Origin: Fimbriimonadaceae bacterium
GTDB taxonomy: Bacteria > Armatimonadota > Fimbriimonadia > Fimbriimonadales > Fimbriimonadaceae
Length of the DNA: 64,000 nucleotides
Reading direction: 5' to 3'
Assembly: GCA_026129685.1 (NCBI GenBank)
Contig: JAHCHO010000007.1
Span: 62,001 to 126,000, forward strand
The notes below the pieces were generated by a model. The model made no database searches and was not told where the DNA came from. It saw nothing but the letters and a program-made list of their open reading frames with translations. Position 1 is the stretch's first letter; every line of letters begins with the position of its first letter. The position numbers were made by a program, and so were the translations under genes. Positions 3,163 through 22,499 of the stretch are shown piece after piece.

Positions 3163-5628
3163 TTGATCCATACACACACCTTCGAGGTTGGGGGCAAGAC
3201 CCTCAGCATCGAAACCGGCCGCGTCGCCAATCAAGCCGGCGGCGCCGTTCTTCTCGGCATGCAAGAGACGGTCGTACTCGGTACGGCCACGATGTCTAAG
3301 GAAGCCCGAGAGAACATCGACTTTCTCCCCCTCGTCTGCGACTACGAAGAGCGCAAGTACGCCGTGGGCAAAATCCCCGGCGGCTTCATGAAGCGCGGCG
3401 GACGTCCCAGCGAAAAGGCGATCCTCGTCAGCCGACTGATCGACCGACCCATCCGACCCCTTTTCCCCAAGGGTATGCGCAACGACATCCAAGTCATCTG
3501 CATGCCGTTCGCCGTCGATAAGGAGTGCCCCCCCGACGTCCTCGCGATCTGTGCAGCGGGAGCCGCGCTGGCCGTTTCCGACGTTCCCTTCGCCGGACCC
3601 ATCGCGGGCGTTCGCGTCGGCCGAGTCAACGGGGAGTTCATCGTCTTCCCGAGTTTGGCCGAGCAGGCCGAGTCCGATCTCGACCTCGTTCTCGCCGGTC
3701 ACAAGAACGCCATTTCGATGGTCGAAGCGGGTGCGTTGCAGGTTTCCGAGGCCGACATGATCGCCGCGATGAAGGTCGGGCACGACGCCATCAAACTGAT
3801 GTGCGTCGAGTTCGAGAAGTTTGCCGCGAAGGCGGGCAAGGCCAAGCGCGAGTTCATCTCCGCCGAGGTCGACCCCGAACTCGTCGATCGCATCAAGAAG
3901 GATTGCGGCAAGGAAGTCGCCGAGGCGATCTTCAACCCGGACAAGGCGTCTCGCGAGTCCGCCCTCAGCGACCTCAACAAGGAGCTGATCGCGCGCTACA
4001 AAGAGGTCTTCGCCGAGGAACCCGCCAAGCTCGCGCAACTCGCCGAAGCGGTCGACAAGGTCGTCAAGGGCACCGTTCGCAAGCTCATCCTCGAAGAGGA
4101 CAAGCGGCCGGACGGACGCAAACTCGACGAGATTCGGTCCCTTTCCGCGACCGCCGGCATCCTGCCGCGCGTGCACGGTTCGGGCCTCTTCACCCGCGGC
4201 CAAACTCAGGTCATGACCGTCGCCACCCTCGGACTCCCGAAGGACGCCCAGATTGTGGACGGCCTCGAAGACGACGAAGACAAGCGCTACATGCACTTCT
4301 ACAACTTCCCCCCGTACAGTGTTGGCGAAGTGCGGATGCTGCGCGGCGCGGGCCGACGCGAAGTGGGCCACGGCGCCCTCGCCGAGCGCGCCCTGAAAGC
4401 GGTCGTGCCGCTCGACGATCCCGATTTCCCCTACACGCTGCTCCTCATCAGCGAGGTGCTCGAATCCAACGGATCGACGTCGATGGCGTCGGTCTGCGGT
4501 TCGACCCTGGCTTTGATGGATGCGGGCGTCGCCATCAAAGCCCCGGTGGCGGGCATCGCGATGGGACTCATGTCCGACGGCAAGACGTACAAGGTCCTGA
4601 CCGACATCCAAGGCATGGAGGACTTCTGCGGCGACATGGACTTCAAGGTCGCCGGAACGCGCGACGGGATCACCGCCCTTCAACTCGACACGAAGCTGGA
4701 CGGCATCCCTGACCACGTCCTCGAGTCGGCCCTCGCCCAAGCCCAGAAGGCACGATTCCAGATCCTCGACGTGATTCAGGATGAGATCTCGGCCCACCGT
4801 TCCGAAATCTCGCGCCACGCCCCGCAGATCGTGACCGTCCAGATCGCCGTCGAAAAGATCGGCGCCCTCATCGGCCCCGGTGGCGCGACGATCAAGAAGA
4901 TCACCGCCGAAAGCGGCGCGGACATCGACATCCAGCAGGATGGTCGCGTGCTCGTCGCCGCCACCGACGGAGAGTCTCGCGACAAGGCGATCGCCGCGAT
5001 CAAGGCTATCACGACCGAAGTCGCCGTCGGCGCGGAGTTCTCGAACTGCAAGGTCAGCCGGCTCATGGGCCGCGGCGCGATGGTCGAGTACCTCCCGGGC
5101 CGCGAGGGTCTGGTCCCGACCGAGCAACTCAGCACCCGCCAGGTGCGCCGTCCGGACGACGTCGTGAGCGTCGGCGACACGATCAATGTCAAGGTCCACG
5201 AAGTGGACGCGATGGGCCGCATCAACCTCACCGCCCTGGGCATCCCGCAGTCCCACCCGAACATGGAAGGGAACGCGGAAGCCGAGGCCCCGCCCCCTGC
5301 TCCGCGCGCCCCGGGAGGTCGCGGATTCGACCGGGATCGAGGTCGCGGCGGCGGTGGTGGCGACCGAGGCGGGCGTGGATTCGACCGCGACCGGGGTCCC
5401 CGCCCCGACCGAGGCGACCGAGGACCGCGCCCGGATCGCGGAGACCGTCCGTACGATCGCGGCGACCGACCCGAACGGACGGAACCGCGCGAGCACGCTC
5501 CCGAACCGCCTGCGGCGGCGCCGCACAGCGAAGGCCCCGCGAACGCGCCGGAAGTTCCCGACGCCTTTCCCAAGCGGAAGCGGGACGACGACGAGGATGT
5601 GAGCGCCCGGTTCCGACCGCGCCGCTGA
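3163..5628 (+). CDS. pnp: Polynucleotide phosphorylase with RG/RD-rich tail
   Basis: Phosphorolytic 3'-5' exoribonuclease of 821 residues. Domain order: first RNase PH fold, helical linker, second catalytic RNase PH fold (EVLESNGSTSMASVCG around 430), KH domain with the GXXG-type loop LIGPGGATIKK (about 568) and S1 domain (about 622-690). The start is TTG at 3163, placed 5 bp after AAGGAGG. About 100 further residues follow the S1 domain. They repeat GGRGFDRDRG, RPDRGDRG and PYDRGD-like units, then end in an acidic/proline stretch with KRKRDDDED. Such Arg-Gly/Asp tails are disordered and may bind RNA or partner proteins. The core is unambiguous; the tail's function is unknown. Confidence 0.97.
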   Translation: MIHTHTFEVGGKTLSIETGRVANQAGGAVLLGMQETVVLGTATMSKEARENIDFLPLVCDYEERKYAVGKIPGGFMKRGGRPSEKAILVSRLIDRPIRPLFPKGMRNDIQVICMPFAVDKECPPDVLAICAAGAALAVSDVPFAGPIAGVRVGRVNGEFIVFPSLAEQAESDLDLVLAGHKNAISMVEAGALQVSEADMIAAMKVGHDAIKLMCVEFEKFAAKAGKAKREFISAEVDPELVDRIKKDCGKEVAEAIFNPDKASRESALSDLNKELIARYKEVFAEEPAKLAQLAEAVDKVVKGTVRKLILEEDKRPDGRKLDEIRSLSATAGILPRVHGSGLFTRGQTQVMTVATLGLPKDAQIVDGLEDDEDKRYMHFYNFPPYSVGEVRMLRGAGRREVGHGALAERALKAVVPLDDPDFPYTLLLISEVLESNGSTSMASVCGSTLALMDAGVAIKAPVAGIAMGLMSDGKTYKVLTDIQGMEDFCGDMDFKVAGTRDGITALQLDTKLDGIPDHVLESALAQAQKARFQILDVIQDEISAHRSEISRHAPQIVTVQIAVEKIGALIGPGGATIKKITAESGADIDIQQDGRVLVAATDGESRDKAIAAIKAITTEVAVGAEFSNCKVSRLMGRGAMVEYLPGREGLVPTEQLSTRQVRRPDDVVSVGDTINVKVHEVDAMGRINLTALGIPQSHPNMEGNAEAEAPPPAPRAPGGRGFDRDRGRGGGGGDRGGRGFDRDRGPRPDRGDRGPRPDRGDRPYDRGDRPERTEPREHAPEPPAAAPHSEGPANAPEVPDAFPKRKRDDDEDVSARFRPRR

Positions 5629-5645
5629 ACCTCGCACCAACGCAA

Positions 5646-5679
5646 AAGGCGGCCCTCCCGGTACCGGGAGGGCCGCCTT
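5646..5679 (+). terminator. Perfect hairpin terminator between convergent genes
   Basis: Perfect 15-bp arms (AAGGCGGCCCTCCCG and its complement) around GTAC, flanked by AAAA on the left and TTCCTTT on the right. It ends the rpsO-pnp operon. Being symmetrical, it can also serve the minus-strand gene that stops at 5695. Confidence 0.85.
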
Positions 5680-5694
5680 CCTTTCGCCTGGCGA

Positions 5695-7545
5695 CTAGGG
5701 CCGAGGCAACTGGAAGGTGAGGGCACGGCGATCGCGCGTCACCTTGAAGACATAGTTGCCCTTGGCGTCCGTCCGCAACTGCAGGCCAAACGGAACGGTG
5801 AAGTTGGCCTTGAGCGACCCGGCCGGAAGTTCGAACGCCAGATCCTGAAGCGTTTCCGGGTTCTCGAGGTTCACGACGATGTTCTTGCCCGTCCCGTCGA
5901 TGAACGTCTCGAATCGGGTCTTGACGTACCGTCGCAGAAACCGGGTGAAGGAGGTCATGCTGTCCAGCTTGAGGGTTCCGCCGTTCTGGAGGTTCTCGCA
6001 ATGGTTGAGGAACTTTCCGAACATGTTCTCGTACCGTTGGTAGATCAGGTCGTACGGGTGGCTGTACATGATCCGGATCGTCTTGTCGTCGGCGCAGAAG
6101 TCGGCCAGGCCCTTCAGCCAGGCGAGCACGTCCGCGTTGCGGACCCGGTTCAGCTTGAACTCGTAGAGCGACGCGTAGTTTTGGTACGTCGAGAGCGGGA
6201 AGGCCCAGGTCGTCTCCGAGACCATCTGGCCGTCCCAATAGGTCCGGGTCGGGGCGCATCCGGTATCGCCGACGTAGTAGTAGCCGTCCACGCCCTGCTG
6301 CTCCAGAATCCGGGTCGTCATCGGTTGCGGATGAACCCCCTGCGGCGCTGCGTAGCTACGCACCGGTTGGCCCGTGACCTCGGTGAGGGCCGCCCCGTTG
6401 AGGGCGATGTAGTAGGCAATGTCCTGCTCCTGGAGCGCCCCGCTCAGAACCGAGAAGGCGAACCAGTCGTGCGCCCAACCCCCGTGCGAGCCGATCGGCC
6501 CGAAGGGGATGAGGCCCTCCAAGAACGGGCGTCCGGTCGTCGTCGCCGCGAACCCCTTCCCGTCGCCCGGTGCCTGGAAGTCGGGGCCGGACGTGACGGT
6601 GAAGTCCTGGGTGAGGCTCGGCCGGAGCAGACCGGCCGACTGAACGCGGGGCAGCGTGTCGTGCTCGATGTCCGAGTCCACGTGCCAATTCATGACCATC
6701 CCGCCCACGCCACCCGGCGAGGCGATGAGCCGGGGCATCTTGCAGACGTCGAAGAAGAACGTATGGAAGGCGCTGGACAGCAGAAGGCCGTCGCCGCGTC
6801 CCTTGAGGTAGCCGATCGGGGCGTTGACGAGCATGGCCTTGCCCGAGCCGATGGCTCGCGTGGCGAAGACCGGACTCGTGCCTTCCGCCGCCGAGACCGT
6901 GACGTCGCCGGACGTCACCGACGCGGTCGTCATCGGGTAGCGCAACTGGCCGTACACGTAGCCGACGATGCTGTTGCTCGAGTCAACCCGACCCGGCTGG
7001 ATGTGCCACGCCCGGGCGGTCGCCGCGTTCGGGAACTGAACGCGCCCAAACTGGAAGGCGAGGACGCCGAGTTCGTCGTAGCGGAAGTAGTCCACCCCGA
7101 GCAGGCTCTTGAACTCCGGGTCCGGCAAAAAGAACCCGTTGGCATCGCGAATGCCCGGGTCGAAGATCGCCAACACGTTGCCCCCGGCCTGCGCGTAGGC
7201 GGTCATCCGCGCGTTCAGTCCACTGGGCAGCGTCTGGGCGAGCGTGTCGGGAAAGACGATCGCTTTGAACTGGTAGACGAGATCGTTGTTCGAGAGCAGG
7301 GCAAGGTCGTTCGTCGACTTCCACACGGGCCGAATGCCGATCTCTTCAAGGGCCGAGTCGTAGGCGCGCCGGATATGCCAGTTGTTCTCCAGCGATCGGC
7401 TATCGTAGACGAAGGCCACCCGATTCGTGGGCCGCAACGTGCCGCCCTGAGCGTGAACCCCGGCGGGCAACGTCAAGGAGACGGCGATCGTCGCTCCCAA
7501 CAGCCACGCCCGGGCTCCGCGGGTTCGATCTCTGGTACACAACAT
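5695..7545 (-). CDS. Secreted NodB-like polysaccharide deacetylase family protein
   Basis: A 616-residue protein with an N-terminal signal peptide (hydrophobic run then VHAQ near residue 30). The N-terminal half resembles a ThuA/gasdermin-like alpha-beta domain: it speaks of a flexible-name fold with segments [12 protein letters not shown] and [10 protein letters not shown], but no family is assigned to it here. From about residue 305 the protein carries NodB-like motifs: HVDSDIEHD (metal-binding Asp pair) and [10 protein letters not shown] (the HxxxH metal site), then a barrel-like C-terminal part. The substrate is unknown. An ORF extends upstream, but the ATG at 7545 places the signal peptide correctly. 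The terminator hairpin lies just downstream. Confidence 0.6.
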
Positions 7546-7798
7546 GCCCGCATTGTGCCGGGGGAACAGCCTCCCAGCCGGTCGCCCTTGTTGGGTCCCT
7601 TTGTCTAGGCCGGTAGCCTTGCCGGCTCCCTGTGTGCGCGCGTGCACCCTCGGCCTTCCAGGCAGTATCCCGAGCTGCCCTTCCCCTTTCCTGACACGCG
7701 GTCGGCCCCGAACGCCGAATGAACCGGCCGAACGCGCCCGTCCCTCTTGGCGTATACTCAAACGACGGGCTCGCACCGCCCGAGGACGTCGCCTCCTC

Positions 7799-8017
7799 AT
7801 GATGAACACGCTCGCATTCGGTCTGCCCAGCGGCACGGAATGGATTTGGATTCTCGTCGTCGTCCTTCTGCTGTTCGGCGGCAAGAAGATTCCCGAACTG
7901 ATGCGCGGCGTCGGAAAGGGCGTGGGCGAACTGCAGAAGGGGCTCGAAGAGGGAAAACGCCAGCTCCAGTCCGCCGTCGAGGAAGAGACGAAAGCGCCGA
8001 CCGGCGCGGACAAGTAA
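7799..8017 (+). CDS. tatA: Twin-arginine translocase subunit TatA
   Basis: A 72-residue TatA/E protein of the Sec-independent export pathway. It has one N-terminal membrane helix (about residues 14-27), then the hallmark [16 protein letters not shown] hinge and amphipathic helix, and a charged tail. The start is ATG 7799 (a second ATG follows at once), with GAGGA about 12 bp upstream. A TATACT box at 7753-7758 could be its -10 element, but no good -35 is seen. tatC is not in the window. A likely substrate is the Rieske protein at 19553, which has an N-terminal SRRGF motif. Confidence 0.93.
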
Positions 8018-8026
8018 CCTCGCCCC

Positions 8027-8827
8027 GTGGCCGAACTCGCCCGCTTCGGTTGGTACGGGTTCGTCGTCGAACACCCGTCCGATTGGGCGCCCGCCTCCCT
8101 GATCGGGTCCCGGGACGCGGGCTACGTGCGCCTCGCCTCCACCGGGAGAATCGCCCTCCAGATTCGATGGACCAAGGCGAAACGCGCCCCCAACCTCTCG
8201 GACCGGCTCGGGGGGTACTTCCGGTCGCTCGCCCGCGATGCGAAGAAGGCGCGAGTCGACTTCCACAAAGAGACCAAGGACGGGGATCGCGGCACCGAGT
8301 ACCGCTGGATCGGCGCCGGCCAGGGAAGGGGAACCGTGTTCCACTGCGCCGAGTCGGCGCGCGTGTTCTTCGTCGAGGTCGCGGGGGGACGCAAGGACAA
8401 CCTTCTTGCCCCGTTGCGTCGTGCGCTGGACTCGTTCCGTTCGACGCCCGAGACGCCCGAGCTCTGGTCGCTGTTCGATCTCGCCGTACTCCTGCCGGGA
8501 AGACCTCGCCTGACGAAAAGGACGTTGCATTCAGGCAAGGTCTGGTTCGCCTGGGAGGATCGCGGCATTCGCATCGAGGCGGGCCGGTGGTCGTTTGCTG
8601 AGCAACTGGTGGCCCGACACGGGTTGGAGCCCTGGGCCCGCGCGGCCCTCGGGTTTCCGAATGGAGAGGCGACGGTCGAGCAGAACCTCGTCCGGTTGCG
8701 CGAAAGCAGCCGGTTCCGTCCGCGCGAGGCCCTTGTCCGCTACGACGTCGCCGCGAACCGGCTGATCACCCTGTCCGTGCGCACCCGCGACCCCCAAAGG
8801 AGGCCAAATTGGGACTGGCTCGCTTGA
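8027..8827 (+). CDS. Uncharacterised protein preceding PqqD/ABC cluster
   Basis: A 266-residue soluble protein with a GTG start, 9 bp after tatA. The N-terminal part (WYGFVVEHPSDWAP) looks like the start of a PsbP/lipid-binding-like beta fold found in many uncharacterised 'YPSDW' proteins, but no firm family can be assigned by eye. There is no signal peptide, membrane helix or catalytic motif. It overlaps the PqqD-like gene by 19 bp, so the two are probably co-translated and may act together with the FtsX/ABC pair downstream. Confidence 0.75.
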   Translation: MAELARFGWYGFVVEHPSDWAPASLIGSRDAGYVRLASTGRIALQIRWTKAKRAPNLSDRLGGYFRSLARDAKKARVDFHKETKDGDRGTEYRWIGAGQGRGTVFHCAESARVFFVEVAGGRKDNLLAPLRRALDSFRSTPETPELWSLFDLAVLLPGRPRLTKRTLHSGKVWFAWEDRGIRIEAGRWSFAEQLVARHGLEPWARAALGFPNGEATVEQNLVRLRESSRFRPREALVRYDVAANRLITLSVRTRDPQRRPNWDWLA

Positions 8828-9225
8828 TGGAGCGCATCTTCCCGGCGCGCAAGCCGATGGACCCCAAGGTGTTCCGTCGAGCTCGACCCGTTCGAAACCC
8901 GATCGTCGTCGCCGAAGCGGGCGAGGACGGCGTGATTCGTCTGCGCGCCAACGTCGCCGAGACCTCGGTCGGGCTCAAAGCCCGCCTCGCCCGGTTTGGC
9001 AGACCGCTGACCAAGACCTTCGAACTCGAGGAAATCGGGGCGTCGATCTGGGCGATGTGCGACGGTGAGCACACGGTAGAAGGAATCGCCCGCTCCCTCC
9101 GCGAACGGTATAAGTTGAACCGCATCGAGGCGGAAACCGCCCTTGGGTCCTTCCTGCACACCCTCGCCCAACGACGGCTGATCACGATGCTGGTTCCCGA
9201 GGTCCATGCGAGCAAGCGACGTTAG
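8809..9225 (+). CDS. PqqD-like peptide-binding protein
   Basis: A 138-residue protein with a PqqD/RRE-type domain in its C-terminal half: a beta hairpin (KTFELEEIGASIWAM) followed by CDGEHTVEGIARSLRERY and an amphipathic helix ending LAQRRLI. PqqD-like domains bind leader peptides for maturases. The start is TTG 8809, preceded by AAAGGAGG with 5-bp spacing inside the end of the previous gene. About 70 extra N-terminal residues are unusual, since PqqD itself is about 90. No radical-SAM enzyme or precursor peptide is visible nearby, so the role may differ from PQQ synthesis. Confidence 0.8.
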   Translation: MGLARLMERIFPARKPMDPKVFRRARPVRNPIVVAEAGEDGVIRLRANVAETSVGLKARLARFGRPLTKTFELEEIGASIWAMCDGEHTVEGIARSLRERYKLNRIEAETALGSFLHTLAQRRLITMLVPEVHASKRR

Positions 9226-9784
9226 GAACACGGATCCCCCGTTCTGGGTCGCTTGGCATCAGGCCCGGGCCAGCATCCGCGTGCGGTTTTGGCGTCAGGC
9301 GATCACCGCCGCCGGCGTCGCCCTCGGCATCGCGTTCTTCTCGAGCATGCAGGTGTTGCAGGCCGCCGAAGGTAAGGGGGCCGACGCGGCCGCCGTCTCC
9401 CGCAACCAGTGGCTCGTCGCCACCTCTCTCGTCATGTGCCTGGTCGGCATCACCAACTCGATGCTGATGTCGGTCACCGAGCGCTTCCGCGAGATCGGTA
9501 CGATGAAGTGTCTGGGCGCGTCCGACACCTTCGTCGTCAAGGTCTACTTCCTCGAATCGCTCCAACTCGGCCTGCTCGGTTCGGTGGTCGGGTCGGTCTT
9601 CGGCGCCGGCCTGATGGCGATGGCCACCCGCGCGATGGGCCAACCCGCTCCTCCGAGCGCGGTCGGGGCCGTGATGGGCTTCGGCACCGTCCTCGGCCTC
9701 GTGCTGACCGTCGTCGCCGCGATCTTCCCGGCGATCCAGGCGGCGCGGATGCCCGCTGCCGCCGCGTTGCGGGTGGAGGTCTAG
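9206..9784 (+). CDS. Minimal FtsX/MacB-type ABC permease
   Basis: A 192-residue membrane protein related to the FtsX domain of MacB/LolC exporters. It has four predicted membrane helices: about 28-50, 66-86, 108-132 and 148-172. The cytoplasmic coupling segment TERFREIGTMKCLGAS, typical of this family, follows helix 2, and the protein ends with the usual AARMPAAAALRVEV. Normal MacB permeases carry some 200 periplasmic residues between helices 1 and 2. Here only about 15 separate them. The ATG lies inside the PqqD-like gene, and the stop abuts the ATPase ATG. Confidence 0.85.
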   Translation: MRASDVRNTDPPFWVAWHQARASIRVRFWRQAITAAGVALGIAFFSSMQVLQAAEGKGADAAAVSRNQWLVATSLVMCLVGITNSMLMSVTERFREIGTMKCLGASDTFVVKVYFLESLQLGLLGSVVGSVFGAGLMAMATRAMGQPAPPSAVGAVMGFGTVLGLVLTVVAAIFPAIQAARMPAAAALRVEV

Positions 9785-10489
9785 ATGGGCGAGGTCGTCG
9801 TTCGCACCACCGACCTCGTTAAGCAATACGGGGAAGGCGAGGCCTCCGTCCGCGCTCTCAACGGCGTCTCGTGCGAGATTTTCGACGGCGAGTACCTCTC
9901 GATCGTCGGTCCGTCCGGATCGGGCAAATCCACGTTCTTCAACATGATCGGGGGCCTCGACCGACCCAGCGAAGGCTCCGTCTTCATCAACTCGGTGGAC
10001 ATCGCCCAACTCACGCCCAAGGAACTGGCCTTCCTGCGTTGCCACACGATCGGTTACATCTTCCAGACCTTCAACCTGATCACCGTGCGCACCGCCTTGG
10101 AGAACGTCACCCTCCCCATGCTCTTCGCGGGAACGTCGCCAGACGAGGCGGACGAGAAGGGCATGAAGCTGCTCGACCTCGTCGGCCTCGGCCACCGCTA
10201 CCATCATCGTCCGAGCGAACTGTCGGGCGGGCAACAGCAACGGGTCGCCATCGCCCGCGCCCTCGCCAACTCGCCCGCGATCATCCTCGCCGACGAACCG
10301 ACCGGGAACCTGGACCTCAAGACGGGCCAGGAGATCATCGACCTGCTCCGAAAACTGAACCAGGAGCAGGGGGTCACCGTGATCGCCGCCACCCATGACC
10401 ACAAGATGCTCGGCGTGTCGGACCGCATCTTCCACATCAGCGACGGCAAGCTCGACCGAGTGGAGACGCAGACACCGGCGACCCACTAG
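9785..10489 (+). CDS. ABC transporter ATPase, LolD/MacB type
   Basis: A 234-residue ATP-binding subunit for the adjacent FtsX-type permease. Walker A is GPSGSGKST (about 42-50), the signature is LSGGQQQR (about 145) and Walker B is IILADEPT (about 166). The family-specific FQTFNLI Q-loop is also present. The ATG follows the permease stop with no spacer. Function is probably mechanotransmission or extrusion of a lipoprotein, peptide or lipid, as in MacB/LolCDE. The substrate cannot be told. Its stop TAG shares three bases with the stop of the convergent gene (CTAG at 10486-10489). Confidence 0.95.
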
Positions 10490-11352
10490 GGTCGGCGCGC
10501 GTCCGGCGGAGGAGGCGGGGGGCCGTCGTTCAAGCGGACCGTCTGGTCGTCGGGCGGGATCGGGGCTGGCGTCGTGAACGTCGAAGCGCGAGCGACGTCC
10601 GGCTCGACCTGGACCGGCGGGTCTAGCGGCGTGCTGAAGTCGAGTTCCTCCAGCGCGTGGTCGATCGCGTGAAGCTGGAGTTTTGCCTCGCTGAGCGCGC
10701 TGAGGAACTCGCGATGCGACATCTCCGGCCCCTTCCCGGCGAACCGGTAGCCAATAAGCTTCATCCGTAGCGTGTCCACCGTGGTGATGAACACGGCGGC
10801 CTGAGCCTCGGTTCGCTGGACCCCCGCCATGACCCCCTGGAAATGCTGGCGGTACTCCGCGATGTTCCGATCGGCGAGTTGGTAGAGTTCCTGGGTCTGC
10901 GAGTCCTTCGATGAGCTGTGCCAGACGGGCGGGCGGGCGTGCAGTTCGCGCTCGGTCGACTGGACGTCCTTGGCGATCAAGTCCGCGCGCCGGAGCGCGG
11001 CGTAGAGACCTTGGCCGACCCGATGCACGGTCTTGGGCATCTCCTGCAGATCGGCGAACTGCTCCTTCCGCATCTTCTGGCGAACCGCGTCGAACAGCCT
11101 CAGCCGGTTCTCGCACTCCTTCCAAAGCCCCTCGAGGCGCTTGGAAGAAAACCGTCGCTTCACCGAGTCTTGGTAAGCCCCGACCGCCCACCAAGCCAGT
11201 AGCGGACCGCCCAACAGGGCGGCAAAGAGAGGATCGTGCGGCGACGCAAAGAACACCAAGGCGGCGAGCGGCCCGCCCAGGAAAAACACGCGCCAAAACT
11301 GGATCGCCTCTTGCAGGAAAAGCCGACGGTCCTGGCGTTCGATGTCGTCCAT
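10486..11352 (-). CDS. Membrane-anchored coiled-coil protein of unknown function
   Basis: A 288-residue protein not assignable to a family. Two membrane helices lie near the N-terminus (about 20-36 and 42-62). A long, charged, mostly helical region follows (about 65-235), then a proline-rich, low-complexity C-terminus ([11 protein letters not shown]) expected to be disordered. The topology places the helical part in the cytoplasm if both helices cross. It lies 12 bp downstream of gatA on the same strand, so it may be co-transcribed with gatC-gatA. Confidence 0.8.
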   Translation of the reverse strand: MDDIERQDRRLFLQEAIQFWRVFFLGGPLAALVFFASPHDPLFAALLGGPLLAWWAVGAYQDSVKRRFSSKRLEGLWKECENRLRLFDAVRQKMRKEQFADLQEMPKTVHRVGQGLYAALRRADLIAKDVQSTERELHARPPVWHSSSKDSQTQELYQLADRNIAEYRQHFQGVMAGVQRTEAQAAVFITTVDTLRMKLIGYRFAGKGPEMSHREFLSALSEAKLQLHAIDHALEELDFSTPLDPPVQVEPDVARASTFTTPAPIPPDDQTVRLNDGPPPPPPDARRP

Positions 11353-15446: not shown

Positions 15447-16240
15447 TTAGGCGCCAACGACGTTCAGGATGCTGATGCAGCCCATGATGTCGTTCGACTC
15501 GTCCGTCAGGGGAATCGTCCGCAACGTCATGTTGTGGAACTCGCCCGTCAGCCGCACGCTGGTCTCCATCCCCCCAAGCGCCTGCAGGTGCGCGTCGATC
15601 GCGAGGTTGGTCGGGTCCTTCGACTTAAAAATCTCGTAGACCGTCTTCCCGACCTCCCACACCACGCCGCAGTGGACCGCCTTGTCCCCATCGAACCCCG
15701 TGAACTGGGCCTGGGCGTCGCGCGTACCCGCCTGCACGATGCCGTCGATGCGCTTGTTCGTGATGCGCTGTTCTTTCGCGACGATCTCCTCGACGGCCTC
15801 TCGCTGAGAGGAACCGTCGGCATTTCGCCGTTCGCGATCAAGTGAATTCTCAGGTTCCGGTCGGTCGCCCAGACCGTCGAGTGAATCTGGTCCATCGCGA
15901 GTTGCAGGAGAGCCAGCGCCGCCCGCAGTTCGAGCAGGTCGTGCGCCCGATCGGCCAAGTGGTGGGCCAACTCCTTTCGCTCGACGTTCGCCTCGCGCAA
16001 GGCCTTCTCCGCCCGCTCGGTGATGACCTTCGCGACCGTGTCCGTGCGACCAAAGCCCCCGACCTTGAGGCGAATCCGCAACCAATAGGTGTTGACCGTG
16101 CCGACGCTCAAGGAGAGCTTGGCGGCGATGGCGTCGTTCGTCAGCCCCAAGATCGAGAGTTCCACGATCTCTTCTTCGCGGGGGGACAGCGCGCGCGTGG
16201 ACATGGTGGAATCCGCCTTGGAATCGGTTGGGGGCTTCAT
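15447..16240 (-). pseudogene. LuxR-type HTH plus PAS-like regulator, frameshifted
   Basis: The N-terminal frame (from ATG 16240, or 16204) encodes a LuxR/NarL HTH: ALSPREEEIVELSILGLTN and VGTVNTYWLRIRLKVGG, then a helical linker and a PAS start, STVWATDRNLRI. The PAS continuation (VGKTVYEIF, then MGCISILNVVGA at the end) lies in a different frame. The switch is needed between about 15860 and 15810. Joined, the two frames give about 265 residues with the same HTH-first plan as the gene at 17719-18360. Either the gene is broken, the assembly has an indel, or recoding occurs. An extra segment of about 55 residues seems to interrupt the PAS domain. Confidence 0.7.
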
Positions 16241-16288
16241 GGATTGTACACCGGATTCTGGCGCGATCCATGGTCGGGTCGTCGCCAA

Positions 16289-17718: not shown

Positions 17719-18360
17719 CTATCCGCCGTAAGACGTCAGGAAGCAGACGACCATCCGCCCCTCCGGCGTCTCCGTCGCGTTCAGACTCAGGCGGACCCGA
17801 ATCGGCGACCCGTCGCGTCGCAACGCGACCGCCCCTTCCGAAGGACGAATCTCCAGTCGCCCCGGAGAGGCGCGCAGGTATTCCTCCCGGTAACGGCGGT
17901 GGACGGCGTGGAGCGACTCCGGCATCAGTCGGCCGATCCTTTCGCCGACCAGGGTCCCGTCCTCCCAGCCGAACAGCGTGGCCGCCGCCGGATTCGCGCG
18001 TCGTATCACGCCTTCCACGTCCACGACGATCACCGCCTCGGGGGCGCCGTCGAGCAACGCCTCGTAGGTCGCCACCGACCGAACCAACGTGTCGCGCCCG
18101 GCAACCTCTTCCGCGAGTCGGTCACACGTCTCCCGGAGAACGCGCAGTTCCTCGTCGCTCTTCTCGCGAACGTACCCGGCGACCAGTTCGGCGCGATTGT
18201 GGTGGCCCACCTTGCTGCGGACCCTCGCCCAATAGGTGTTGACCGTCGGCATCCGGATGCCGAGTTCCTTGGCGATCGCCAGGTCGGTCAAACCCAACGC
18301 CGCCAAGGCCATCACCTGACGTTCGCGCCGGGACAGGGCGGACCACTCCACGGTGCTCAT
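17719..18360 (-). CDS. LuxR-type HTH transcription regulator with C-terminal PAS domain
   Basis: A 213-residue regulator with unusual order. The HTH is at the N-terminus (ALSRRERQVMALAALGLTD, then MPTVNTYWARVRSKVGHHNRA). A coiled-coil linker follows (about 78-110), then a PAS domain (about 113-210: LLDGAPEAVIVVDVEGVIRRANPAAATLFGW). Classical LuxR/NarL proteins carry the HTH last. The ATG at 18360 is preferred over an upstream extension because it lies just before the HTH and leaves the palindrome 22 bp upstream. It is divergent from the respiratory operon at 18441, which it may control. Confidence 0.85.
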   Translation of the reverse strand: MSTVEWSALSRRERQVMALAALGLTDLAIAKELGIRMPTVNTYWARVRSKVGHHNRAELVAGYVREKSDEELRVLRETCDRLAEEVAGRDTLVRSVATYEALLDGAPEAVIVVDVEGVIRRANPAAATLFGWEDGTLVGERIGRLMPESLHAVHRRYREEYLRASPGRLEIRPSEGAVALRRDGSPIRVRLSLNATETPEGRMVVCFLTSYGG

Positions 18361-18381
18361 TATGCGCCTGCCCGAGACCCC

Positions 18382-18405
18382 TCTGTCGTGAGAACTCACG
18401 ACAGA
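18382..18405. promoter_or_regulatory. 24-bp perfect palindrome, candidate operator
   Basis: Two 11-bp arms, TCTGTCGTGAG and CTCACGACAGA, are separated by AA with no mismatch. The palindrome lies between the divergent LuxR-PAS gene (start 18360) and the respiratory operon (start 18441), 22 and 35 bp from the two ATGs. It has no T-run, and its size and symmetry fit a binding site for a dimeric HTH protein, probably the adjacent regulator. Confidence 0.6.
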
Positions 18406-18440
18406 CACGCCGACGCGCCTTGCCGTACCCTCTATCATCC

Positions 18441-19556
18441 ATGGCGCCCTTCCCGCATCTCGATCCGATCCCCATTCCGGCGCCCGTGTGGCTGATGAAG
18501 GCGCTGAGTCTGATCACGCTCGCCCTCCACTTCTCCGCCGTCATGATCGTCGTCGGGTCCCTCTTGCTGGTCTTGTGCCTCAACGCGACCGGCCGGCGCC
18601 GGCGGAGCGAAGCCCACCTGTCCGCCTCCTACACGCTGGCAAAGCGGCTCCCCGTGATCATGACGTGGGTGATCAACCTCGGCGTCCCGCCGCTCCTCTT
18701 CGCGCAGGTGCTGTACGGTCCCGCGATCTACTCGAGCAGCGTCCTGATCGGGGTTCTTTGGTTCTCGGTGATCCCCCTGCTCATGCTGGCCTACTGGCTC
18801 ATGTACCGCACCGTCGCCGCGTTCGACGCCAAGCGTTCGCCCGCGTGGCAGGCGTTCTTCGCGCTCTTGGTGGTCCTCGGCATTGGCCAGATCTACGCCA
18901 TGAACATGACCCTCATGCTCCGGCCCGAAGCGTGGCAGGCGATGTACAAAGCCAGCCCTCTGGGTCTCAAGGCGCCGACGGGGGATCCCACGACGACCCT
19001 TCGGTGGCTGTTCGTGATGGCGGGCGGCCCGCTCTTCGGCGGCGTCTGGGCTCTCCTCCTCTCGAACATGGCCTATCTGACCCCTGGCGTCCAAGCGGCG
19101 CTGAGGCGGGTTGGCGGGTGGTCGGCCCTCCTGGGGGCGGCGCTTCAAGGCGTGCTCGCCCTGCGTATCGTCCACGCCCAGCCTAAGGTCGTGGGCGAGG
19201 CGCTGGCGGGCAACACGCTCTTTACGGTCGGCGGGTACGCGTTCCTTGTCACCGCCGCCCTTGTCGCTCTCCTCGGTGCGTTCCAGGCGCTCCGCGGAAG
19301 GGGCAACGTCGTCATCGGGACCGCCGGTCTCTTGCTCGCCTTCGTCGCGAACGCCGGGTCGGTCGTCGCCCGCGACGCGATCCGCGACGCGACCCTCAAG
19401 GCCAAGGGCTTCGACGTGTGGAATCGCGTCGAATCGAGCAACTGGTCGGTCGTCGACCTCTTTCTGTTGCTGTTCGTCGTGATGCTGGGCACCGTCTACT
19501 GGTTGCTGAGCGTGATGCGAAAGGCCACCCCCCCCTCCGAGCAGGTGACGCTGTGA
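18441..19556 (+). CDS. Polytopic membrane protein, CydA-like, first gene of Rieske/cytochrome b operon
   Basis: A 371-residue protein with about eight to nine hydrophobic helices. The N-terminal part (ITLALHFSAVMIVVGSLLL, with His30, followed by LPVIMTWVINLGVPPLLF) resembles the first helices of CydA-like proteins and of the gene at 21114, where a histidine in the first helix binds haem. No c-type haem motif is present. The ATG at 18441 is chosen; an upstream TTG extension is less likely. It overlaps the Rieske gene by 4 bp (GTGA). Its role in the complex is inferred from position and helix pattern. Confidence 0.75.
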   Translation: MAPFPHLDPIPIPAPVWLMKALSLITLALHFSAVMIVVGSLLLVLCLNATGRRRRSEAHLSASYTLAKRLPVIMTWVINLGVPPLLFAQVLYGPAIYSSSVLIGVLWFSVIPLLMLAYWLMYRTVAAFDAKRSPAWQAFFALLVVLGIGQIYAMNMTLMLRPEAWQAMYKASPLGLKAPTGDPTTTLRWLFVMAGGPLFGGVWALLLSNMAYLTPGVQAALRRVGGWSALLGAALQGVLALRIVHAQPKVVGEALAGNTLFTVGGYAFLVTAALVALLGAFQALRGRGNVVIGTAGLLLAFVANAGSVVARDAIRDATLKAKGFDVWNRVESSNWSVVDLFLLLFVVMLGTVYWLLSVMRKATPPSEQVTL

Positions 19557-20041
19557 ACCAAAACCCCCCATCCTCCCCGTCGTCCGAGGACGAGGCTTTT
19601 TCCCGACGCGGTTTCATCCGGGTCGCGATGGGCGGCGTCGGACTCGCCTACGCGGCCGCAATCGGATACCCGATCTACCGCTACCTGAACTCGCCCGTCG
19701 AGGCGTCCATCCAAATGGCCGCCGTCAAGGACGTGACCCTGCCCGACGCCGACAAACTGCCCAAAGGCTCCGCCTTGATGTTCAAGTTCGGCATCCGGCC
19801 CGCGATCCTGATCCACCACCAGGACGACTCCTGGGTCAGCCTCGACGCGATCTGCACCCATATGGGCTGCACCGTCGCCTACGACCCGAAGAAGGACCAC
19901 ATCCACTGCGCCTGCCACGGCGGAACCTACGACGCCAAAACGGGCGAGAACATCTCCGGGCCGCCGCCTCGGCCCCTCACGAAATACGTGGTCGCCGTGA
20001 CCCCTGGCTCGGTCTTGATCACGAGAGCGCAACATGGCTAA
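19553..20041 (+). CDS. Rieske iron-sulfur protein
   Basis: A 162-residue [2Fe-2S] subunit of a bc-type complex. The N-terminus has an SRRGF twin-arginine-like motif (17-21) and one membrane anchor (about 22-45). Box 1 is CTHMGC (Cys101, His103, Cys106) and box 2 is CACHGG (Cys119, Cys121, His122), so all four cluster ligands and the disulfide pair are present. The start is GTG 19553, overlapping the previous stop. It overlaps cytochrome b by 8 bp. It passes electrons from quinol to a c-type haem. Confidence 0.95.
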   Translation: MNQNPPSSPSSEDEAFSRRGFIRVAMGGVGLAYAAAIGYPIYRYLNSPVEASIQMAAVKDVTLPDADKLPKGSALMFKFGIRPAILIHHQDDSWVSLDAICTHMGCTVAYDPKKDHIHCACHGGTYDAKTGENISGPPPRPLTKYVVAVTPGSVLITRAQHG

Positions 20042-21104
20042 GACGACCTCCTATCTGGTCGAGCGGATGGGCCTGGAAGGGGTCCTCGCCGCCGCGAAGG
20101 AAAAGACCGTTCCCCTACACCGTCACAGCGCCTGGTACTACTGGGGCGGCATCGCCCTGGTGTGCTTCATCGTCCAAGCGCTGACGGGCATTCTCCTTAT
20201 GGTCTACTACCGGCCCGGCCCCGAGGCCTACGAGTCGGTCCGCCAGATCACCTACCAAATCCACTTCGGTTGGCTGATTCGATCGGCCCACAACTGGTCG
20301 GCGACGATCTTCCTACTGTCGGTCTTCGTGCACATGTTCTCCGTGTTCTTCATGAAGGCCTACCGGCGACCGCGCGAGATCGGTTGGTTCAGCGGCATGT
20401 TGCTGTTGCTCCTGGGGCTGACCTTCGGCTTCAGCGGCTACTTGCTTCCCATGGACGACCTTGCTTACTTCGCGACCAAGGTCGGGCTCGAGATGCCGAA
20501 CGCGATTCCGCTCATCGGCCCGCCGATCGCGAACCTGCTTCGCGGCTCCCTTGAGGTCGGCGAGCACACCGTCCAGCGCTTCTTCGCCCTCCATGCGGTG
20601 ATCTTGCCGATGCTGTACCTGCCGCTGCTGGGACTGCACCTCTGGCTGGTCCAGAAGCACGGCAACGCGCTGCCGCCCTCCGAGGAAACGAAACCCGAGT
20701 CGGAGCGCAAGACGATCCCGTTCTTCCCCAACTTCTTGGTCAAGGACTTCGCCATCTGGCTGGTAACGCTGAACGCGATCGCGATCTGCGCGGCGCTCTT
20801 CCCCTGGCAACTGGGTCCGATGGCCGATCCGCTCATGCCCGCCCCGGAAGGCATCCACCCCGAGTGGTACTTCATGAGCCAGTTTCAAACCCTCAAGATC
20901 CTTGGGGGGATCTTCCCCGGGATGGCGGGCGAAGCCATCGGCATGGTCCTCTTCACGCTCGGACTCGTGCTTTGGTTTCTCGTTCCCGTCTTCGACACCG
21001 AGCGGCCCGTTGGCAAACGCGGCCGCCAGACCACCAACTTCGGCCTGTTCGTCGTCCTCGTTCTGATCGTGACGACGATCTGGGGCTACCTGGGGGTCCG
21101 TTAG
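20034..21104 (+). CDS. Cytochrome b of a bc-type quinol oxidoreductase
   Basis: A 356-residue membrane protein, in one chain rather than a split b6/IV pair. Two haem-binding His pairs are visible: SAHNW...VFVHMF (helix B) and LHAVILP...LGLHLW (helix D). The Qo-site PEWY-type motif is HPEWYF (about 283-288), and the polypeptide ends with further helices (LVLWFLVPVFD, IWGYLG). It works with the Rieske protein to oxidise quinol and move protons. No cytochrome c1 is encoded nearby, so the c-type domain in the next gene is the likely electron acceptor. Confidence 0.95.
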   Translation: MAKTTSYLVERMGLEGVLAAAKEKTVPLHRHSAWYYWGGIALVCFIVQALTGILLMVYYRPGPEAYESVRQITYQIHFGWLIRSAHNWSATIFLLSVFVHMFSVFFMKAYRRPREIGWFSGMLLLLLGLTFGFSGYLLPMDDLAYFATKVGLEMPNAIPLIGPPIANLLRGSLEVGEHTVQRFFALHAVILPMLYLPLLGLHLWLVQKHGNALPPSEETKPESERKTIPFFPNFLVKDFAIWLVTLNAIAICAALFPWQLGPMADPLMPAPEGIHPEWYFMSQFQTLKILGGIFPGMAGEAIGMVLFTLGLVLWFLVPVFDTERPVGKRGRQTTNFGLFVVLVLIVTTIWGYLGVR

Positions 21105-21113
21105 GAATCCGCC

Positions 21114-22499
21114 ATGAACTATCCGTTTTGGGACGTCCCTGGTATCGGCGGGCCGTGGGTCATCGGCATCGTCTCGATCTTCCACGTGCTGATCGCGTGG
21201 TTCGCGGTTGGTGGCGGGCTGTACCTGCCCGTCGCCGAAGCGAAGCTCTATCGCGAGGGCAAGGAAGCCTGGTTGCCGGTGCTCCAGCGCCACTCCAGGC
21301 TCTTCCTCGTGATCACGAGCGTGTTCGGCGCCGTGTCCGGCGTCGGGATTTGGTTCTCGATCGGCCTGGTCCACCCCGAAGCCACCTCGGCCCTCATCCA
21401 CAACTTCGTCTTCGGTTGGGCGATCGAGTGGGTGTTCTTCGTGATCGAACTCGCGGCGGCGGCGGTGTACTACTACACGTGGAACCGAATTCCCCGGGAG
21501 CTGCACCTGAAGGTCGGCTGCCTTTATGCGGTCTCCTCGTTCCTTACCCTCGTCATCATCAACGGCATTCTCTCCTTCATGTTGACGCCCGGCTCGGCAT
21601 GGCTCGAGGTCGCGGGCACCGGCAACGAAGCGAGCCGGTTCTGGTACGCCTTCTTCAACCCCACCTACTTCCCGTCGCTGATCATGCGGAGCCTGGCTTG
21701 CCTGTCGCTCGCCGGCATCTACGCCCTCATCTCCTACTCCCTGGTGGACGACGAGGCGCTCGCCGACATTCGCGCGGCGATGGTGCGGTGGAGCGCGCGT
21801 TGGCTGGGCCCGATGGTCCTCGGTCTGCCCATCGCGCTGGCCTGGTTTCTTCTCGCCATGCCTGCCAACAGCCGAGACCTGCTTGAACTCGGCATGACGA
21901 CCATCGGCTCCGGAGCCTTCACCCAGGTGACGCGCATCGCGATGCTGACGATCATCACGACCGTCACCATCGCCGGCATCGCCTACTACCTGGCGTACCG
22001 GGCGCCCCGCGAGTTCTCCCTCGCCCACGCCGTTTGCCTCCTCGCCCTCGGCGCCGTCGCCACCGCCTCGACCGAGTATGCCCGCGAGACCGTGCGCAAA
22101 CCCTACGTGATCGGGGGCCACATGTACTCCAACGGCGTCCGGGTGCGAGACGTGGAAAGGCTCAACCAGGAGGGCTACCTGAGCCAATCCATGTGGACGC
22201 CCGACACGACCCGGCTGGCCCGGGGCGAAGCGATGTTCCGCGGCCAGTGCATGAGTTGCCACACCCGGGACGGCTACCGCTCCATCACCCGGCTCCTTCA
22301 GAACCGAGACGAGAAGAACATCGTCAAGCTCCTCGATCTGCTCCACAAGCCGACGAAGGATTCCACCTACGTCCGCTACATGCCGCCGTTGGTCGGTACC
22401 GACGAGGAACGCGACGCTCTCGCCGGCTATTTGGCAACGCTTTCCAAGCCGCTCGCCGCCCCGACCACGACGACCGCCAAAGTCGCCAAAGCGCCTTAG
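21114..22499 (+). CDS. CydA-like membrane cytochrome fused to a C-terminal c-type haem domain
   Basis: A 461-residue protein. Residues 1-340 contain about nine helices homologous to subunit I of cytochrome bd: the first helix carries FHVLIAWFAVGGGLYL (His24 is where CydA binds haem b), then VSGVGIWFSIGL and FFNPTYFPSLIMRS. The GRQPW motif and quinol loop of real bd oxidases are absent; VRKPYVIGGHMYS lies at that place. Residues about 365-450 form a cytochrome c domain with CMSCH (379-383). It follows cytochrome b by 9 bp. It probably replaces cytochrome c1 or feeds another acceptor. Terminal oxidase activity is doubtful. Confidence 0.85.
   Translation: MNYPFWDVPGIGGPWVIGIVSIFHVLIAWFAVGGGLYLPVAEAKLYREGKEAWLPVLQRHSRLFLVITSVFGAVSGVGIWFSIGLVHPEATSALIHNFVFGWAIEWVFFVIELAAAAVYYYTWNRIPRELHLKVGCLYAVSSFLTLVIINGILSFMLTPGSAWLEVAGTGNEASRFWYAFFNPTYFPSLIMRSLACLSLAGIYALISYSLVDDEALADIRAAMVRWSARWLGPMVLGLPIALAWFLLAMPANSRDLLELGMTTIGSGAFTQVTRIAMLTIITTVTIAGIAYYLAYRAPREFSLAHAVCLLALGAVATASTEYARETVRKPYVIGGHMYSNGVRVRDVERLNQEGYLSQSMWTPDTTRLARGEAMFRGQCMSCHTRDGYRSITRLLQNRDEKNIVKLLDLLHKPTKDSTYVRYMPPLVGTDEERDALAGYLATLSKPLAAPTTTTAKVAKAP

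Follow-up and report, generated by a model that had tools for sequence, protein, structure and literature searches.

An operon joining Rieske and cytochrome b genes to two CydA-fold membrane proteins, one of them fused to a haem c domain, in Armatimonadota and other bacterial phyla

The canonical bd oxidases (CydAB) are simple quinol oxidases, which function without a bc complex. Bd-like oxidases that are independent of quinol are already known, and some of them are clustered with the genes of complex III, as published for the OR-N-type CydAA' of Nitrospira and Candidatus Manganitrophus (PMC10839748, PMC6606698, PMC9040806). The OR-N-type CydAA' is conserved in most Nitrospinota, where it is probably fed by cytochrome c (PMC10839748), and is found in most Nitrospirales, with one type being located directly downstream of the alternative complex III genes (PMC12342949). 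In Nitrospina, the bd-like proteins keep the N-terminal haem ligands and are missing the quinol residues (PMC3578206), and in Nitrospira a III-IV supercomplex may be the product of a gene region that combines cytochromes c with complex III and bd-like proteins (PMC6606698). The operon described here, which occupies positions 18441-22499 of a stretch of 64,000 nucleotides (the window) from the Fimbriimonadaceae bacterium assembly GCA_026129685.1 (contig JAHCHO010000007.1, positions 62,001 to 126,000), is a variant of these systems, in which a Rieske protein and a cytochrome b are encoded between two membrane proteins, A and D, that resemble the CydA subunit of the bd oxidases. Given the published clustering, the original prediction that this architecture may be new was too strong.

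In the OR-C and OR-N types of CydAA', likewise, CydA paralogues are found together, the quinol site is missing, and cytochrome c has been proposed as the donor (PMC10839748, PMC12342949), but in the present operon it is the subunit with the active-site ligands that carries the fused haem c, and a single four-gene unit holds the CydA-like pair along with the Rieske and cytochrome b genes. The CIII_1/bd-like cluster of Nitrospira and the TO_3 and TO_4 of Ca. Manganitrophus are also similar, with a III-IV supercomplex being proposed in Nitrospira (PMC6606698, PMC9040806), although the Nitrospira region contains several separate cytochromes c, in contrast with the compact unit found here, in other phyla. 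No description of exactly this four-gene unit was found among the listed matches to titles and beginnings of abstracts in the open-licence literature, nor in the available parts of PMC9723581, PMC11707229, and PMC12569097. The bc1 and b6f complexes share the Rieske protein and the cytochrome b, with their conserved ligands and PEWY motif, whereas in the present case neither c1 nor cytochrome f was found, and two CydA-fold subunits are present instead. The OR-C family is reportedly connected with haem c in the work of Murali et al. from 2021, and D may belong to this family.

The evidence suggests, with a probability of roughly 0.6, that A, the Rieske protein, cytochrome b, and D form a single membrane complex, in which a Rieske/cytochrome b module would oxidize quinol and a bd-type oxygen reductase would be fed by haem c. 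The genes and sites concerned are located on the + strand of the window, where the four genes abut one another:

18441..19556, + strand: gene A, a predicted CydA-fold membrane protein of 371 amino acids (aa), with nine long helices and no Pfam family
Residues of A (model and alignments with D): H30, the first haem-ligand histidine, is kept; helix 3 has no acidic residue
19553..20041, + strand: Rieske [2Fe-2S] protein (Pfam, cluster ligands), with a putative GTG start that overlaps the stop codon of A
19853..19918, + strand: Rieske cluster-binding boxes CTHMGC...CACH (sequence and alignment of relatives)
20034..21104, + strand: cytochrome b, a single chain of 356 aa, with H86, H100, H187, H202, and the Qo motif PEWY
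21114..22499, + strand: gene D, a membrane domain of the bd-oxidase subunit I type (eight long helices) with a C-terminal monohaem cytochrome c domain
21183..21185, + strand: His24 of D, equivalent to E. coli CydA His19 (active-site haem ligand), in 96/96 rows
22074..22103, + strand: D motif E-x-x-R-E-x-x-R-K-P, counterpart of E-x-GRQPW, with E325/R328 equivalent to E. coli E445/R448
22248..22262, + strand: CMSCH haem c attachment site of D, with C379, C382, H383, and M423 in 96/96 rows

These coordinates agree with those of the original prediction. The A and Rieske frames overlap by 4 bases, if the GTG is the start, and the Rieske and cytochrome b frames by 8, while 9 bases separate cytochrome b from D. 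As had been noted, the operon contains no c1 and no CydB gene, and no match to the c1 or cytochrome f families of Pfam was found in its four proteins at E values up to 1. It also contains no haem-copper gene, although the statement that oxidase subunits are lacking altogether is doubtful, since D keeps the ligands of bd-type oxygen reduction.

The gene order was surveyed in a collection of species genomes, in which 372 pattern matches were obtained and 337 of these encode a relative; the best 80 loci were kept, and the counts describe the closest relatives. All four genes are present in 65 of the 80 (quartets), in the order A-Rieske-cytochrome b-D and on one strand every time, in records titled as Armatimonadota, Verrucomicrobiota, Acidobacteriota, Planctomycetota, Omnitrophota, Hydrogenedentota, and Sumerlaeota. 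In one quartet (L036), A is split into two frames, and in three the genes were computed to overlap by more than 80 bases, an effect, in L005 and L006, of the automatic choice of start codon. Six further loci are cut by the end of the contig (L002, L017, L026, L029, L068, and L071), while seven (L075-L081) have a D-A or D-D-A arrangement, with no Rieske or cytochrome b match within the stretch examined. The remaining two, from Verrucomicrobia, contain a single reading frame of 554-569 aa for A and Rieske (L069:6808-8472 and L072:8282-9991), followed by D, without a cytochrome b, which represents a cytochrome b-less form of the Rieske/bd-like combination. No PF00033 match was found in either of the two fusion genomes, or in the genomes of the pair loci L076 and L080, among the 13 genomes searched in all. 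The D-D-A loci, from Ignavibacteriae/Bacteroidota (L077:10001-13722 and L078:5378-9090), have tandem paralogues of D before A, and lie downstream of apparent haem-copper oxidase genes, with L077 also having alternative complex III genes (by eye).

Fifteen further stretches of Armatimonadota DNA yielded six quartets, eight cases in which A adjoins D without Rieske or cytochrome b, and one (L102) that is cut off by the contig end behind D. A survey of 205 Armatimonadota genomes found D, at an E value of 1e-20 or lower, in 47 and A, at 1e-10 or lower, in exactly the same 47; the best A and D places are on separate contigs in G099, G147, and G160. On a quick, unrooted tree of D, with one very long branch, the quartets and the pairs are separate and required two changes each (shuffled means of 18.4 and 16.8), and the group of pairs plus fusions (19 rows) received an SH-like approximate likelihood ratio test (SH-aLRT) value of 94, with the pair row L107, on a very long branch, falling outside it. 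These few changes indicate that the joining of D-A with Rieske/cytochrome b, or their splitting, has been rare.

In the gaps of more than 90 bases within the 65 quartets, none of the inserted open reading frames of at least 90 aa has a CxxCH motif on inspection by eye, and an inserted cytochrome c gene was rejected, as these frames are S23-like, short-chain dehydrogenase-like, and, in one case, unnamed (by eye). The S23-like frames, which resemble small four-helix proteins, are found within the operon beside cytochrome b in three Acidobacteria/Verrucomicrobia loci (L051:7924-8319 and 9503-9913, L033:9373-9918, and L061:9499-9933).

As originally predicted, the central pair of genes encodes a Rieske protein and a cytochrome b, and these have the haem, cluster, and Qo residues of a bc1/b6f core. 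The Rieske protein matches PF00355 (E 8e-14), and the cytochrome b, which is complete, matches PF00033 (1.7e-45) and PF00032 (3.7e-9), while its best match in NCBIfam is a cytochrome b6 model, under the cut-off of that model. The cluster ligands are present in 71/71 aligned Rieske rows, including the two A-Rieske fusions, and the four conserved histidines and the P-E-W-Y motif in 70/70 rows of cytochrome b, with H86, H100, H187, and H202 presumably binding the haems. In the window, the second Rieske box reads C-A-C-H-G-G, and its last glycine is found in 71/71 rows. A serine at this position raises the potential of the bc1 Rieske protein, and the box without this serine fits a forward oxidation of menaquinol.

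The membrane domain of D is recognized by Pfam (PF01654, E 8e-21, best stretch 16-210), and its model has eight long helices and a predicted local distance difference test value (pLDDT) of 83.5. A solved bd-oxidase CydA ranks first in Foldseek (best E 6.5e-7), and the VIA-align Z-scores reach 28.1-30.5 for the ten CydA entries listed, compared with 17.6-18.8 for subunits of alternative complex III, 16.3 for polysulfide reductase, and at most 10.2 for the further rows. The profile alignment and MAFFT agree that H24, E105, E112, E325, R328, and P330 of D correspond to H19, E99, E107, E445, R448, and P450 of E. coli CydA, the first five of which are ligands and neighbours of the two oxygen-reducing haems. 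In the D alignment, which has 96 rows, H24, E105, E321, R324, E325, R328, K329, P330, C379, C382, H383, and M423 are invariant, and E112 is found in 95. The rows comprise 76 labelled as quartets (among them the window itself, four loci truncated by a contig end, and the three duplicate contigs L108, L109, and L110, which repeat L042, L057, and L066), two fusions, and 18 pairs. The literal GRQPW motif is missing, as had been noted, but the stretch itself is present as E-x-x-R-K-P-Y, with invariant equivalents of E445, R448, and P450.

By contrast with the canonical CydAB, the ligands of haem b558 are not kept in D, given that H186 is replaced by R192 (profile) or M191 (MAFFT), and M393 by A276 or T279; R192 is found in 96/96 rows. 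The quinol loop is also absent, with K252 and E257 falling in a gap (MAFFT) and 22 residues separating the model helices 214-248 and 271-295. This absence of the quinol site together with the retention of the active-site haem ligands is characteristic of the OR-C and OR-N families. The last helix of CydA is replaced in D by a haem c domain, which is matched weakly by the Cytochrome_CBB3-like family (E 1.2e-4, 22.7 bits vs. a cut-off of 27) and includes the CMSCH site with which the protein had been predicted to end; Met423 is the likely distal ligand of the haem. As the model of D has eight helices, one fewer than A, the c domain would be placed on the side of the N-terminus, adjoining E325, and in the known topology of CydA this side is the periplasm, which is required by haem c.

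The other membrane protein, A, is CydA-like in its predicted structure, which the sequence by itself does not reveal. No Pfam match exceeds the cut-off (E 0.009 at best in 43 members of the family), the A profile has no match among the PDB sequences at E values up to 10, and direct profile matches with the canonical CydA are weak (P 0-40, depending on the sequence set). The model of A, with nine long helices and a pLDDT of 94.4, nevertheless has a solved bd-oxidase CydA as its first Foldseek match (best E 4.1e-6), with VIA-align Z-scores of 27.8-30.8 for the ten CydA entries listed. Polysulfide reductase scored 13.8, subunits of alternative complex III 14.8-17.9, and no other row exceeded 7.6. 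Profile comparison with D gave P 96.5 and E 1e-9. On the basis of the fold comparison and the match to D, an ordinary transporter or an unrelated membrane protein was rejected, and the presence of two CydA-like proteins, as predicted, is borne out by the Pfam match and fold of D and by the fold of A. D and A share with the canonical subunit a fold at Z-scores of about 28-31. In A, H30 is found in 75/75 rows with a letter at this position and aligns with the haem histidine of D, while hydrophobic residues occupy the positions of E105 and E112 in the alignment, and the position of E325 is occupied by an acidic residue, D316 (D in 68/75 and E in 4/75 rows). A looks like a degenerate CydA paralogue in the place of CydB.

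In the proposed complex, a quinol, probably menaquinol, would be oxidized at the Qo site of cytochrome b, with one electron passing to the Rieske cluster and the other being recycled through the b haems in a Q-cycle. From the Rieske head, the electron would then reach the haem c domain, which would lie in the periplasm in the place of the last CydA helix, and this domain would feed the high-spin haem pair of D (the b595/d position, with H24, E105, E112, E325, and R328), the site at which O2 would be reduced to water and cytoplasmic protons consumed. The electrons would presumably arrive at D through the Rieske protein and cytochrome b, rather than from quinol as in CydAB. A would take the structural place of CydB and probably dock the Rieske protein, holding this and D together. 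The fusion of the Rieske protein to the C-terminus of A in two Verrucomicrobia loci suggests that the two lie together; in these fusions, the Rieske anchor would cross back after the nine helices of A, and the head of the protein would come to lie on the haem c side. The absence of a cytochrome b match in the fusion genomes suggests, in turn, that the Rieske protein may also be fed by another donor.

The original prediction was of a bc-type complex in which a CydA-derived protein replaces c1 and adds further haem. The core of this proposal, a bc-type pair with two CydA-like proteins, one of which carries haem c, is conserved as a unit in 65/80 loci, but a role of D as a mere substitute for c1 is not supported, given the conservation of the bd active-site ligands and the existence of D-A pairs without adjoining bc genes. 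These pairs also show D-A to be an independent module, and the more economical reading is that D-A, as an oxygen reductase, has been combined with Rieske-cytochrome b as a quinol-oxidizing module.

The strongest alternative, which is nonetheless unlikely, is a quinol:cytochrome c reductase, in which the membrane part of D would be an anchor and its haem c would play the role of c1, reducing a soluble cytochrome c and, through it, a haem-copper oxidase encoded elsewhere. The single haem c of D is like that of c1, no c1-like insertion was seen in the 65 complete loci, and the host (3.94 Mb, 99.18% complete) has a haem-copper oxidase. The genes of this oxidase lie beside those of an alternative complex III (ActA and ActB being named by eye), some 80-90 kb away from the operon on its own contig. 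The operon itself has none of the features of an alternative complex III, that is, a multihaem ActA, an ActB, and an NrfD-type subunit. A reductase would leave unexplained the conservation of the bd ligands (E112 in 95 rows, the others in 96/96) and the D-A pairs, as well as the distribution of other oxidases. A search for COX1 and CydB with an E limit of 1e-10, covering 50 of the 74 genomes behind the 80 loci, found COX1 in 39, CydB in 14, and neither in 10, from the quartets L009, L037, L060, L062, L064, and L066, the fusions L069 and L072, and the pairs L080 and L081. L066 is on the same 182,915-base contig as genome G194 (98% complete, 2% contamination), in which CydB was not found either.

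Less probable still is an arrangement in which D-A would be a free-standing cytochrome c oxidase and Rieske/cytochrome b a separate, co-transcribed bc unit, with the electrons being transferred by a diffusible carrier or on encounter. The D-A pairs without adjoining bc genes and the two fusion genomes without a cytochrome b match are consistent with this, but no separate cytochrome c gene was seen within the operons, the Rieske protein is fused to A in two loci, and the order of the four genes is fixed, with some of their frames overlapping in the window.

Canonical bd enzymes also react with nitric oxide and peroxide, which would favor another substrate for the haem pair of D, while the hosts of the operon are not known to be nitrifiers, which counts against this and against a complex that runs backward, reducing quinone from a high-potential periplasmic donor. 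Even with reverse electron flow being proposed for related proteins of Nitrospira and Nitrospina (PMC6606698, PMC3578206), both of these options are improbable, given that in 10/50 genomes the search for oxidase families left no candidate other than the module, and that the C-A-C-H-G-G box fits the forward direction.

Several observations weigh against a single quinol-oxidizing and oxygen-reducing complex. The profile match between A and D is weak when the quartet sequences alone are used (P 33 local, P 0.2 global), and the charge bias of the loops favors the assumed orientation of D weakly and does not decide that of A. The sequence cannot separate O2 from nitric oxide or another acceptor. 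The host and nearly all of its close relatives have another route to O2, and the complex is not the only one: among the 61 nearest genomes, COX1 is found in 59, an NrfD-type protein, which in the host clearly belongs to an alternative complex III, in 55, and CydB, over the cut-off, in 11. Of the ten genomes in which neither COX1 nor CydB was matched, one has a completeness figure, and the search covered these two families. CydB and D occur together in seven of the 205 Armatimonadota genomes (47 with D, 53 with CydB; 12.2 expected), and are not mutually exclusive, so that the exclusion of CydAB by the module was dropped as functional evidence. In the 61 nearest genomes, eight with D-type proteins and the 11 with CydB over the cut-off do not overlap, with weak CydB matches under the cut-off in two of the eight, G005 and G018, and no CydB match (PF02322) was found in the host genome.

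A second Rieske/cytochrome b pair, together with a gene for a one-haem cytochrome c, is found on another contig of the host (L115, contig C13, about 5069-11105), beside genes of the ferredoxin and molybdopterin oxidoreductase types (by eye), and makes up a different bc-type unit. The operon is flanked upstream by a divergent gene with helix-turn-helix (HTH) and PAS-like parts and downstream by a convergent hydrolase-like gene (by eye). The divergent gene, at 17719-18438 on the - strand, whose longest frame begins 2 bases from the operon, encodes a short protein with a LuxR-type HTH and a PAS-like part, similar to that encoded at 15548-16288 on the same strand (by eye), and might regulate the operon.

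In the Armatimonadota, Acidobacteriota, Verrucomicrobiota, and Planctomycetota, Pfam misses A entirely and recognizes D in part, along with the cytochrome b and the Rieske protein. It is tentatively suggested, at rather less than even odds, that these proteins represent a previously undescribed class of compact, four-subunit quinol:O2 oxidoreductases, in which a covalently fused haem c would connect a Q-cycle core with a bd-type site, combining complex III and a terminal oxidase in one, with a greater proton yield than the canonical bd oxidases, serving as the sole oxidase in some bacteria, and occurring in a further form with A and Rieske fused and no cytochrome b. If the proposed complex exists, it would represent a further design for aerobic respiration, alongside the supercomplexes of bc1 with haem-copper oxidases and the stand-alone bd oxidases, and would change the energy yield and oxygen affinity predicted for many uncultured members of these four phyla.

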